Part shown: piece by piece, positions 1-2,262 of the stretch
How the letters are laid out: each line of letters starts with the position of its first letter
Numbering within the stretch: position 1 is the first letter of the stretch
NCBI GenBank assembly: GCA_022842165.1
Contig: JALHQC010000034.1
Span: 1-43,905 of the forward strand
Length of the DNA: 43,905 nt
Reading direction: 5' to 3'
Source: a bacterium
GTDB taxonomy: Bacteria > Pseudomonadota > Alphaproteobacteria > Rhizobiales > Aestuariivirgaceae
Notes under the pieces: generated by a model
Told to the model about the DNA's origin: nothing
The model's database searches: none
What the model saw: only the letters and a program-made list of their open reading frames with translations
Made by a program: the position numbers and the translations under genes

Positions 1-1647
1 GTCATGGATTGCGACACGACCGGCATCGAGCCCGATTTCGCGCTGGTGAAGTTCAAGAAGCTGGCCGGCGGCGGCTATTTCAAGATCATCAACCAGGCGG
101 TGCCGGAAGCGCTCCGCACCATGGGCTATCAGGCGGACCAGATCGAAAAGATCATCGGCTATGCCGTGGGCCACGGCACGCTGGCCGATTCCCCCGGCAT
201 CAACCACGCGGCGCTGAAGGCCAAGGGCTTCGGCGACGAGCAGATCGCCAAGATCGAGAGCGGGCTTGCTTCCGCCTTCGACATCAAGTTCGTGTTCAAC
301 AAGTGGTCGCTTGGCGAAGACTTCTGCCGCAACGTGCTGAAGCTGTCCGACGCGCAGCTGAACGACTACGGGCTCGATCTGCTGGCCTATCTCGGATTCT
401 CGAAGTCCGATATCGACAAGGCGAACATCCATGTGTGCGGCGCGATGACTCTCGAAGGCGCCCCCGGCCTCAAGGACGAGCATCTGCCGGTGTTCGACTG
501 CGCCAACCCCTGCGGGCGGCTGGGCAAGCGCTATCTCTCTGTCGACAGCCATATCCGCATGATGGCGGCGAGCCAGCCCTTCATCTCGGGCGCCATCTCC
601 AAGACCATCAACATGCCGAACGATGCGGCAGTTGAGGATTGCGCAGCCGCCTACATGCTGTCGTGGAAGCTGGCGCTGAAGGCCAATGCGCTCTATCGCG
701 ACGGCTCTAAGCTCTCTCAGCCCCTCTCCTCGCAGCTTCTGGCGGATGAGGACGACGAGGCGGACGATGTGGCCGACACGCTGATGCAAAAGCCCATGGC
801 GGCGCGTGTCGAGACGGTTGTCGAGAAGATCGTGGAGCGGATCGTCGAGCGTGAGCGTTCGCGCGAGAAGCTGCCGAACCGCCGCAAGGGCTATACCCAG
901 AAGTCGGTCGTCGGCGGGCACAAGGTCTATCTCCGCACCGGCGAGTATGATGACGGGAAGCTGGGTGAAATCTTCATCGACATGCACAAGGAAGGTGCCG
1001 CACTTCGCGCGATGATGAACAATTTCGCCATCGCCGTATCGGTCGGCCTGCAATATGGCGTGCCGCTGGAAGAGTTCGTCGACGCCTTCACCTTCACCAA
1101 GTTCGAGCCCGCGGGCATGGTGCAGGGCAACGACTCGATCAAGAACGCGACCTCGATCCTCGATTATGTGTTCCGCGAACTGGCCGTTTCCTATCTCGGC
1201 CGCAGCGATCTTGCGCATGTCGATGCCTCCGAAATGGGCTTCGATGCATTGGGCAAGGGCGTGGGAGCGGAGGAAGCACCGCGCGTTCCGGCGGCGCGCG
1301 TGCTGTCGTCGGGCTTCGTGCGGCGTCCGAACCTCGCCACATCGAACGTGGTGGTGATGTCGCAGGCATCACCCGCACCGGCCCAGGTGCAGGCGCTGGC
1401 GATCAGGGCCGAGGCCGTGGGTGCGCTGGCTCTTGCCGAGGCAACGCCATCGGCCGGTGCCTACGAGACCTCAGCAACGGTGACCGCATCGTCGGTGGCG
1501 ATGAACCTCACCATCGACCGCCGCGCCGAAGCCCGCATGAAGGGCTATGAAGGTGACAGCTGCTCGGAGTGCGGCAACTTCACGATGGTGAGGAACGGCA
1601 CCTGCCTCAAGTGCGATACCTGCGGCTCGACGAGCGGGTGTTCGTAA
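1..1647 (+). CDS. nrdJ: Vitamin B12-dependent (class II) ribonucleotide reductase, 3' part
   Basis: The reading frame is open from the first base and ends at TAA 1645-1647, so only the C-terminal ~548 residues are present. The family reduces ribonucleotides to deoxyribonucleotides with adenosylcobalamin as radical source, in the cytoplasm and independent of oxygen. Seen here are the late catalytic-barrel and C-terminal parts of an alphaproteobacterial NrdJ, a charged linker with a [13 protein letters not shown] stretch around codons 280-293, and a Cys-rich C-terminal tail with CSEC, CLKC and DTC motifs. In this family the tail passes electrons from thioredoxin to the active site. The last 90 bp (1559-1648) occur again at 2114-2203, beyond an inserted HNH gene. 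No terminator lies directly after this stop; the likely original terminator is 580 bp downstream, after the second tail copy. Confidence 0.93.
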
Positions 1648-1648
1648 G
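1559..1648 (+). repeat. Direct repeat, copy A: functional nrdJ tail
   Basis: This is the upstream copy of a 90-bp direct repeat with partner at 2114-2203, offset exactly 555 bp. It encodes the Cys-rich end of NrdJ plus stop codon. Sequence identity stops one base after the TAA, so the repeat is defined by the end of the gene rather than by downstream sequence. Confidence 0.95.
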
Positions 1649-1667
1649 GCAATTTCGCCTCTCAACC

Positions 1668-1700
1668 TTGACCTCGAATATCCCTGATGTTCGAGGTCAA
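1668..1700 (+). other. Perfect 11-bp inverted repeat downstream of nrdJ stop
   Basis: TTGACCTCGAA (1668-1678) and TTCGAGGTCAA (1690-1700) are perfect reverse complements around an 11-nt loop. No T-run follows, so it is not a standard intrinsic terminator. It lies at the left end of the inserted cassette and may be a structural element of the cassette RNA or a recognition site. Confidence 0.6.
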
Positions 1701-1705
1701 ACACT

Positions 1706-1732
1706 AAAGGAGTACAAAACATGAATCGATGA
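1706..1732 (+). other. Strong Shine-Dalgarno followed by a three-codon ORF
   Basis: AAAGGAG at 1706-1712 lies 8 nt before ATG 1721, an ideal ribosome binding site. The frame reads only M-N-R before TGA at 1730-1732. It could be a leader mini-ORF controlling the HNH gene, or the start of a gene destroyed when the cassette formed. The HNH gene itself has a much weaker site. Confidence 0.4.
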
Positions 1733-1756
1733 TCTGAAAGGCGCAGAAATAGAAAT

Positions 1757-1788
1757 GGGCACCACATCACTGCAATGACGTGGCGCCC
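1757..1788 (+). other. Hairpin in the leader of the HNH gene
   Basis: GGGCACCAC (1757-1765) pairs with GTGGCGCCC (1780-1788) with one mismatch and a 14-nt loop, 36 nt before the HNH start codon. With the hairpin at 1668-1700 it makes the 176-nt leader of the cassette look structured. No T-run follows. Confidence 0.45.
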
Positions 1789-1824
1789 TCACGATAGACC
1801 CCACTAGCAATTTAGGAATCTAAC

Positions 1825-2094
1825 ATGTCTCTTTTCTCACTACCCAGTACCGAAATCAAGAAAATCGCGGCTTGGGCCAGAGCTCTCGAAATAAACGGCC
1901 ATGACCGGAATGTGTTCCGCCAAGATCGATTTGGAATGTGGATCAAGTATTCAGAGTATGGAAAGTGCTCTCAGTATGGTTGGGAGATTGACCACATCGT
2001 CCCTCAGTCCTGGGGCGGCCTCCCTTCGTTGGAAAACGAAGTAGCCACTCACTGGAAGATGAACCGCAGCAAGGGCGACAGCTTCGCAGGCTGA
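1825..2094 (+). CDS. Small HNH endonuclease
   Basis: An 89-residue protein that is almost entirely an HNH nuclease core. Residues 38-51 carry the aromatic/glycine stretch GMWIKYSEYGK, residues 53-60 the WEIDHIVP motif with the first catalytic His at 57, and residues 71-84 the NEVATHWKMNRSKG motif with Asn71 and Asn80. This is the ββα-metal fold that nicks or cuts DNA with a divalent ion. HNH enzymes of this size occur as free-standing homing endonucleases and inside introns; ribonucleotide reductase genes are classic hosts. The start ATG 1825 has only a weak AGGA upstream. The gene is lower in GC (51%) than its neighbours, consistent with transfer. It shares reading frame with nrdJ and with the displaced nrdJ tail downstream. 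Target specificity cannot be read from sequence. Confidence 0.85.
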   Translation: MSLFSLPSTEIKKIAAWARALEINGHDRNVFRQDRFGMWIKYSEYGKCSQYGWEIDHIVPQSWGGLPSLENEVATHWKMNRSKGDSFAG

Positions 2095-2113
2095 TGTCTG
2101 CCGCCTGAAGTGG

Positions 2114-2202
2114 GCTGCTCGGAGTGCGGCAACTTCACGATGGTGAGGAACGGCACCTGCCTCAAGTGCGACACCTGCGGCTCGACGAGCGGGTGTTCGT
2201 AA
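2114..2202 (+). pseudogene. Displaced 3' tail of nrdJ (copy B)
   Basis: This stretch repeats the last codons of nrdJ with stop TAA 2200-2202, but it has no connection to the body of the gene. It differs from the functional tail by one synonymous base. A GTG at 2110-2112 is in frame and would give a 30-residue Cys-rich peptide, but no ribosome binding site precedes it. Homology may extend a few bases upstream in weakened form (TGAAGTG 2106-2112 resembles TGAAGGTG before copy A). It is best read as the original end of nrdJ left behind by the insertion. Confidence 0.85.
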
Positions 2203-2229
2203 GCGCCTCAGCGAGACCCTGAACGAGCA

Positions 2230-2262
2230 AGAGGCCGGATAAAGATCCGGCCTCTTCTGCTT
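2230..2262 (+). terminator. Likely original nrdJ terminator
   Basis: AGAGGCCGGAT (2230-2240) and ATCCGGCCTCT (2245-2255) form a perfect 11-bp stem with a 4-nt loop, followed by a short pyrimidine-rich TCTGCTTG. It sits 27 bp after the displaced nrdJ tail. That position suggests it terminated nrdJ before the cassette inserted. Confidence 0.75.

Follow-up and report, generated by a model that had tools for sequence, protein, structure and literature searches.

The 3' end of nrdJ, which encodes the B12-dependent ribonucleotide reductase, is present twice on contig JALHQC010000034.1 of a draft genome of the Aestuariivirgaceae (assembly GCA_022842165.1, 117 contigs), and a small HNH endonuclease gene lies between the two copies. 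This raises the questions how an essential gene came to end twice, which of both ends is the original one, and what part the endonuclease may have had in the event. The window analysed here is this whole contig (C34; 43,905 nucleotides), and the genome it belongs to is designated G000; the contig starts inside nrdJ and encodes the C-terminal part of the protein (PRK07562). Comparison with related genomes indicates that nrdJ of the window has probably received a young tail-replacing insertion at its 3' end, at a docking site that has been reused by other cargos. The features concerned are the following.

1..1647, + strand: 3' part of nrdJ (open reading frame (ORF) and family match; contig starts inside the gene)
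1559..1648, + strand: tail 1, the functional nrdJ end, zinc-ribbon-like CSECGN... plus stop (direct repeat, in frame with nrdJ)
1649..2113, + strand: insert between the tails, 465 bp, 49.9% GC (bounds set by the repeat; 29 family loci have a single tail, then other DNA)
1668..1700, + strand: first hairpin of the cassette leader, with arms of 15 nt (repeat and hairpin scans; the counterpart position in genome G041 is also a hairpin)
1721..1732, + strand: mini-frame ATG-AAT-CGA-TGA, 8 nt past AAGGAG (read from the sequence)
1757..1788, + strand: hairpin 2 of the leader (hairpin scans; alignment with G041, two sequences only)
1825..2094, + strand: predicted HNH endonuclease gene, 89 amino acids (ORF, Pfam, motif alignment)
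2114..2203, + strand: tail 2, the probable displaced native nrdJ end (repeat; flank alignment to relatives)
2228..2257, + strand: probable native terminator-like hairpin of nrdJ, 3' of tail 2 (hairpin scan; few T after it)

A repeat search of the window returned the direct repeat of positions 1559-1648 and 2114-2203, which comprises 90 nt at an offset of 555 and is identical at 89 of 90 positions, the sole difference between tail 1 and tail 2 (GAT/GAC, both Asp) being silent. Exact repeats in the window reach a length of 58 nt, as compared to at most 14-16 nt in 20 mononucleotide shuffles, and the GC content of the insert is 49.9% versus 62.3% for the window. The recomputed repeat values equal those given in a preliminary description of this DNA, which had also placed an 89-residue HNH protein of 51% GC between the tails; this gene was recovered as well (GC 51.5%), and its product matches PF13395 (HNH_4) with 25.4 bits, above the cut-off of 22. 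Tail 2 lies in the reading frame of the HNH gene, past its TGA and seven codons, which may be chance (one in three).

The native end was sought among 29 loci of the same family (L005-L033), for which about 1.5 kb of DNA past the nrdJ stop was compared (998 bp in L008, 56 bp in L018). The empty site that the preliminary description had proposed to look for is present in these relatives, which are other species and not alleles of one species: all 29 have a single nrdJ tail within the span compared, and in 27 of them a hairpin stem of at least 8 bp begins 16-30 nt past the stop, L018, which ends 56 nt past the stop, being one of the two without it. The hairpin 3' of tail 2 has the GGCCGG-type stem and the spacing that are found after the single tail of near relatives (e.g., L005 and L006), and it was not among the matches of a terminator consensus scan. 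That a strong hairpin follows tail 2 only, as had been claimed earlier, is incorrect, since tail 1 is also followed by one (1668-1700), of unlike sequence. The proposal that the downstream copy is the original gene end stands: in addition to the hairpin spacing and stem, tail 2 and its 3' flank have aligned counterparts in G001, G034, and G036, the alignment starting at -89 of the tail and extending past +1.2 kb, and in G033 the best local match to this flank begins only at +334. At the differing base, tail 2 is shared by 22 of the 29 relatives, tail 1 by six, and neither by one. Because a single tail with a terminator-like hairpin at the same distance is the rule in relatives, the downstream tail is judged to be the native gene end and the event a young 555-bp tail-restoring insertion. 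The two tails are 1/90 apart and differ from the nearest of the 29 loci (L013, G021) at 4-5 of 90 positions and from G034 at 6-7; therefore the copy would derive from the species' own nrdJ, recently, or have been homogenised since.

Second nrdJ tails were found to recur in the order. Of 397 genomes queried with the tail peptide, 365 gave a match and 21 gave two or more; these 21, apart from G000, were queried a second time to obtain coordinates. A second tail 3' of nrdJ is present in 10 of the 365 (G000, G117, G182, G209, G284, G369, G376, G394, G425, and G434), spread over eight families. G209 is counted provided that its one-contig record is circular, in which case its 97-bp tail repeat (99% identical) brackets about 3.9 kb, and G376, G284, and G434 were kept in the count despite decayed second copies and no visible foreign end. 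Dropped from the 21 were contig-edge pairs (G105, G109, G245, G287, and G310), genomes with two nrdJ genes (G391 and G414, the latter judged by its ORFs), and distant weak matches (G214, G327, and G351). In G278 a 585-bp repeat of the nrdJ end plus flank (100% identical) occurs, rearranged, at several contig ends (L147, L148, and L159); this genome was tallied apart, as an eleventh. As a control, the aspS gene end was searched in 199 genomes of the order. It matched in 192 of these. The only second copy, in G018, was located on a different contig, and one of the two matches lay at the edge of a contig, which leaves no same-contig copy. The one-sided Fisher p-value for nrdJ versus aspS is 0.014 (10/365 versus 0/192), or 0.009 with G278 included (11/365 versus 0/192). 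Replacement-tail insertion is supported as a recurrent event.

Besides recurrence, several of these loci carry nrdJ ends of foreign ancestry. Foreign ends were found in five genomes other than that of the window (G182, G425, G394, G117, and G405); in G182, G394, G117, and G405 they show as abrupt drops in identity over windows of alignment columns, mostly with a change in third-position GC content (GC3). In G182 as well as in G425 the downstream tail is nearer than the functional tail to seven of seven genus mates, and in G425 it continues into the mates' 3' flank; judged from these comparisons, the functional tail of both genomes is foreign and the displaced tail native. The foreign nrdJ end covers about 80-90 codons in G182 (GC3 of about 0.3-0.45 versus 0.85-0.91), about 60 codons in G117, about 120 in G394 (GC uneven), and about 160 in G405, and upstream of it nrdJ resembles that of the mates in all four. 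The left breakpoints thus vary from about 60 to 160 codons from the stop, which fits homologous recombination within nrdJ. In G369, nrdJ is below the mates' identity over about 200 codons; it was not counted as foreign because its GC3 is high and the mates are from other genera. Windowed comparison with mates gave no clearly foreign functional end in G376, G434, G041, G209 (two mates only), and G328. On the right side, the second tails of the three closest pairs start at -89 (G000), about -92 (G209), and -81 to -84 (G369), counted from the end of the stop codon. Displaced tails are not known to be selected for where they start, and these positions hint at a preferred break close to the codon of the first zinc-ribbon cysteine, although three cases are few.

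The DNA between the tails differs from genome to genome. Cargo was identified in 7 of the 10 second-tail genomes and consists of the HNH gene (G000), genes for M78 (CapP/ImmA-like) peptidases (G182, G394, G425, and, in pieces, G117), an M78 peptidase with a helix-turn-helix protein and two ORFs that look transposase-like by eye (G209), or SLATT plus ThsB TIR (G369); none was recognised between the tails of G376, G284, and G434. The HNH family of the window is absent at E <= 1e-7 from the other nine second-tail genomes, six of which have other recognisable cargo. Genomes with a single tail match contribute as well: in G405 (L212) nrdJ is followed by an M78 gene and then an AIPR/AbiU gene, and in G328 (L214) by an M78 gene and then a CD-NTase gene. 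The gene order of L212 and L214 points to a possible defence-gene hotspot 3' of nrdJ. All four scanned M78 proteins encoded 3' of nrdJ (G041, G405, G328, and G209) match PADLOC capP, at 1.1e-12 to 7.5e-7; that of G328 is under the Pfam cut-off (18.3 versus 22) but matches capP at 7.5e-7. A peptidase profile (A4) matched 6 of the 397 genomes at E <= 1e-12, and five of the six loci are 3' of nrdJ; as G182 and G394 were used to build the profile, the independent tally is three of four (G117, G405, and G328, with G435 elsewhere). The M78 ORF of G394 (L154), at 12-671 past the nrdJ stop, has a C-terminus 64% identical to the nrdJ tail, and the M78 fragment of G117 ends in a stretch 54% identical to it, so that the displaced tail seems to have turned into part of a cargo protein in both genomes.

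As for the HNH gene itself, its protein family is present at E <= 1e-5 in 3 of 69 family genomes, the window's own included, and in two of the three, belonging to two genera, it lies directly 3' of nrdJ. In G041, from another genus, an HNH protein 44% identical to that of the window, with the DH and N positions of the motif in common, is encoded about 200 bp past the nrdJ stop. Its leader resembles that of the window in having a hairpin, a mini-frame preceded by an AGGAG-type stretch (AGGAG-AACAAAAA-GTG...TAG at the corresponding place), and a second hairpin in which the pairing is kept and the bases are partly changed, as far as two sequences can tell. An M78 peptidase gene comes next after the HNH gene, and relative to genus mates G041 has non-homologous DNA that starts at the nrdJ stop and extends to about +1975 to +2078. 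At that point three mates align again, with their positions +143 to +350, and the fourth, G039, aligns only from +3440. No tail remnant was detected past the G041 cassette (score 38 versus up to 43 in 100 shuffles). In terms of gene arrangement, G041 does link the HNH gene to the nrdJ-end site. In the third carrier, G024, the HNH gene is not at nrdJ, the two being on separate contigs.

No nrdJ gene is near any of 80 HNH relatives, retained out of 216, within the flanks compared (at most 5 kb per side, often less). Tail duplication was assessed around 84 HNH loci, i.e., L001-L003, these 80 relatives, and L125, several of them with short flanks, and a duplicated gene tail was found in the window only. 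Three repeats were rejected as not being gene tails: that of L102 (HNH leader plus start, score 71), a 29-nt repeat of L050 (25/29 alike) that starts 18 nt past a gene's stop, and a 28-nt repeat of L069. The matches in the order and class (L036-L044) were inspected by ORF list only. A phage origin of the HNH gene was rejected: the phage collection yielded one HNH record, 35% identical, a first viral scan detected only two short matches, both in phage genes judged not to be HNH homologues, and a second gave one locus, 3' of an IS1595-type transposase. A plasmid origin was likewise rejected, the 14 records having distant HNH matches (best 47%). An intron or structured RNA was rejected in the absence of an Rfam match at E <= 1 in positions 1450-2900, and the 465-bp insert holds no integrase-sized ORF besides HNH that could encode a recombinase.

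Some further observations concern HNH relatives and nrdJ neighbourhoods. HNH relatives lie immediately 3' of IS1595-type transposase genes in L070 and L125. By eye, the HNH leader sequences of L097 and L048 look alike, and a GAGAACAAAAA-like stretch followed by a G+C-rich hairpin precedes the HNH gene in L048, L097, L125, G000, and G041. One Planctomycetota genome (L102 and L117) has a repeated HNH leader plus start and several small HNH copies, apparently two in tandem, and in G310 (L036 and L037) the HNH domain ends a longer ORF whose start looks TIR-like by eye. In L143-L146 (G271, G272, G274, and G140) nrdJ tails lie in short open frames, perhaps owing to frameshifts or contig ends. Positions 2740-2865 of the window hold a 41-codon lysine/alanine repeat gene (AAKK type) 3' of nrdJ, and similar genes are found 3' of nrdJ in G274, G140, and other members of that genus.

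An event that would account for these structures starts with incoming DNA that carries an nrdJ end plus cargo, which in the window would be the leader hairpins and the HNH gene. On its left side this DNA would recombine with the resident gene through nrdJ homology, and on its right side it would be joined to the resident tail at some 90 bp ahead of the stop codon. The gene would thereby remain whole with the incoming tail, the cargo would come to lie just past the stop, and the relic downstream would be the resident tail with its terminator. Elsewhere in the order, other cargos, in several cases defence-like, occupy the same dock. The window event may well be of this kind despite its one-lineage tails, if the incoming tail came from the same species or was converted later. 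The preliminary description had proposed a minimal mobile unit that inserts near the end of an essential gene and carries a replacement tail. The insertion and restoration are retained; mobility through the HNH gene is not supported. The HNH protein may aid its own spread by cutting the empty nrdJ end, or it may be cargo like the others, with the balance leaning somewhat to the latter. It could make the break in the window and in G041, and in the other nine only if it has since been lost. Because those nine have no HNH relative at E <= 1e-7, HNH as the driver is unsupported.

Parts of this design have known counterparts. Free-standing HNH homing endonucleases of phages are small HNH genes beside nucleotide-metabolism genes, as here; we know of none that leaves a duplicated host-gene tail, and cleavage by the window's HNH protein is putative. 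CapP-type M78 peptidases have a role in the control of cyclic-oligonucleotide-based anti-phage signalling systems (CBASS), and the M78 genes found here resemble them in their capP matches and, in G328, in the adjacent CD-NTase gene. They differ in that a four-cysteine stretch forms the C-terminus of the G182, G394, and G041 M78 proteins, which in G394 is closely like the nrdJ tail, and to our knowledge capP is not known to sit 3' of nrdJ. The closest counterparts are eukaryotic. Mobile ORFs (mORFs) in fungal mitochondria, found in atp6, atp9, cox2, and nad3 of Glomus sp. and in atp6 of Allomyces, consist of a host gene with an inserted C-terminal part, an endonuclease ORF, and the displaced native C-terminal part (PMC3630166). 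The same three-part anatomy is seen here, and foreign and native tails are likewise told apart by a close relative, as in G182 and G425. In contrast, the mORFs described there are mitochondrial and encode LAGLIDADG or GIY-YIG enzymes, whereas the window is part of a bacterial chromosome and encodes HNH, with M78 or SLATT/TIR and no recognised nuclease elsewhere. WHO elements home into yeast FBA1 and replace its 3' end (PMC7282813). They too sit 3' of an essential gene and swap its end without splicing, the old end being displaced downstream; however, WHO proteins combine intein and zinc finger, their tails have diverged enough to protect the new allele, and they accumulate in clusters, whereas the tails of the window are 99% identical and flank one unit. 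As in mORFs and WHO elements, a nuclease gene lies between the host gene and its displaced 3' fragment in the window, the 5' part of nrdJ being beyond the contig. A native displaced tail with a foreign functional one is found in G182 and G425, with non-nuclease cargo; in the window the displaced copy is native by position and both tails are of one lineage. The earlier statement that no named element of this design exists is therefore wrong in general, as fungal mORFs and yeast WHO elements have it. A literature search, of which one query matched mostly unrelated words, showed among the matches listed neither a bacterial counterpart of splice-free gene-end replacement nor a bacterial HNH gene arranged in this way.

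Several observations weigh against the proposed tail-replacing insertion at a reused dock. The event of the window is known from one assembly, and with tails that differ at 1/90, i.e., of one lineage, no donor tail is visible there. Just upstream of the tail, nrdJ identity is 0.62 and 0.49 in G000 versus 0.69 and 0.51 for the lowest among nine relatives, a weak dip at most (codons -30 to -90), and G000 is at or under the lowest relative value in a few other nrdJ windows too. The nrdJ ends of G041 and G209 look native; in G376, G284, and G434 the functional tail looks native, the second copy is decayed, and cargo was not recognised; and G328 has an M78 gene 3' of nrdJ, yet its nrdJ end is native and its tail matched once only. 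What counts as the "second tail" in G394 and G117 is the C-terminus of an M78 reading frame. Other second-tail starts differ from those near -90, being -101/-102 in G117 and G394, -125 in G425, -128 in G434, -167 to -211 in G182, and -222 in G376 and G284. A single gene, aspS, is a thin control, and within its 199 genomes nrdJ accounts for 4 of the 10 cases (G000, G117, G182, and G209) versus none, with p 0.06. No donor molecule was found on the plasmids or phages searched; nine plasmid records match the nrdJ tail, and the two inspected are from Hyphomicrobiales.

These points leave room for other explanations. In true homing, HNH would cut an HNH-free nrdJ close to where the tail begins, and tail 1 plus HNH would be copied in during repair, with tail 2 as the right homology arm, as in WHO elements and mORFs. 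The architecture is the same as in those elements, the HNH motif positions are retained at 44% identity, and two of the three family carriers among 69 genomes have HNH directly 3' of nrdJ, in two genera. This is nevertheless unlikely: tails identical at 89 of 90 positions with a silent difference give an occupied allele no visible protection, 89 amino acids leave scant space for a DNA-binding domain of its own, a second tail is lacking in G041, the HNH family is absent at E <= 1e-7 from the other nine tail-copy genomes, and the 80 HNH relatives retained out of 216, within the flanks given above, lack both a nearby nrdJ and a window-like tail duplication. Just as doubtful is a chance event, in which a conspecific nrdJ-HNH fragment was taken up and integrated by one-sided homologous recombination plus illegitimate joining, without any element or recurrent dock. 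The small indel-like blur at junctions, the varying left breakpoints of foreign ends, and the weak control contrast in shared genomes are in line with it, whereas recurrence at nrdJ in eight families versus none at aspS, as well as the repeated cargo type (M78 peptidases), call for an explanation of why this site is preferred.

Direct repeats at gene 3' ends that restore the gene are typical of attachment sites of integrative elements, and the window could be the remnant of such an element, whose recombinase used the nrdJ tail and of which the 90-bp repeats would be attL and attR. Contigs break exactly at the tail in several draft genomes, and the displaced native part of G182 extends to about -211, near the start of the foreign nrdJ part. 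This is still less probable, because the insert has no integrase, and none was seen by eye, without an integrase family search, among the listed ORFs that lie between the tails or next to them; moreover, the tail pair of G182, at 75% identity, lacks a long identical core, and the start of the foreign part varies by genome. Finally, an assembly artefact, or a 555-bp tandem duplication without insertion, could be suspected in a draft of 117 contigs. It is very improbable, since the insert is unlike the window in composition, the 29 relatives have other DNA past the tail, the tails differ at one base, and the 97-bp tail repeat of G209 (99%) is in a one-contig genome. A tail-replacing insertion at a reused nrdJ dock thus remains the reading that we consider probable for the window. 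Its extension is put forward tentatively, as a possibility that falls short of being probable: the 3' end of nrdJ may be a dedicated dock for bacterial splice-free tail-replacing cassettes, each composed of a substitute tail and selfish or defence cargo (HNH, a CapP-like peptidase with CD-NTase or AbiU/AIPR, or SLATT with ThsB-TIR), initiated by a break that would preferentially occur some 90 bp ahead of the stop, and with the resident tail displaced and sometimes made into the C-terminal zinc ribbon of the cargo (G394).

Splice-free gene-end replacement is known from fungal mitochondria and yeast, and no bacterial case came up in the literature search. The last 60-160 codons of nrdJ may have a separate history, which matters for nrdJ trees and for the reading of duplicated gene ends. 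If the dock is real, it would offer defence genes and selfish nucleases a simple, integrase-free way to travel, in a position protected behind an essential gene that is left whole.

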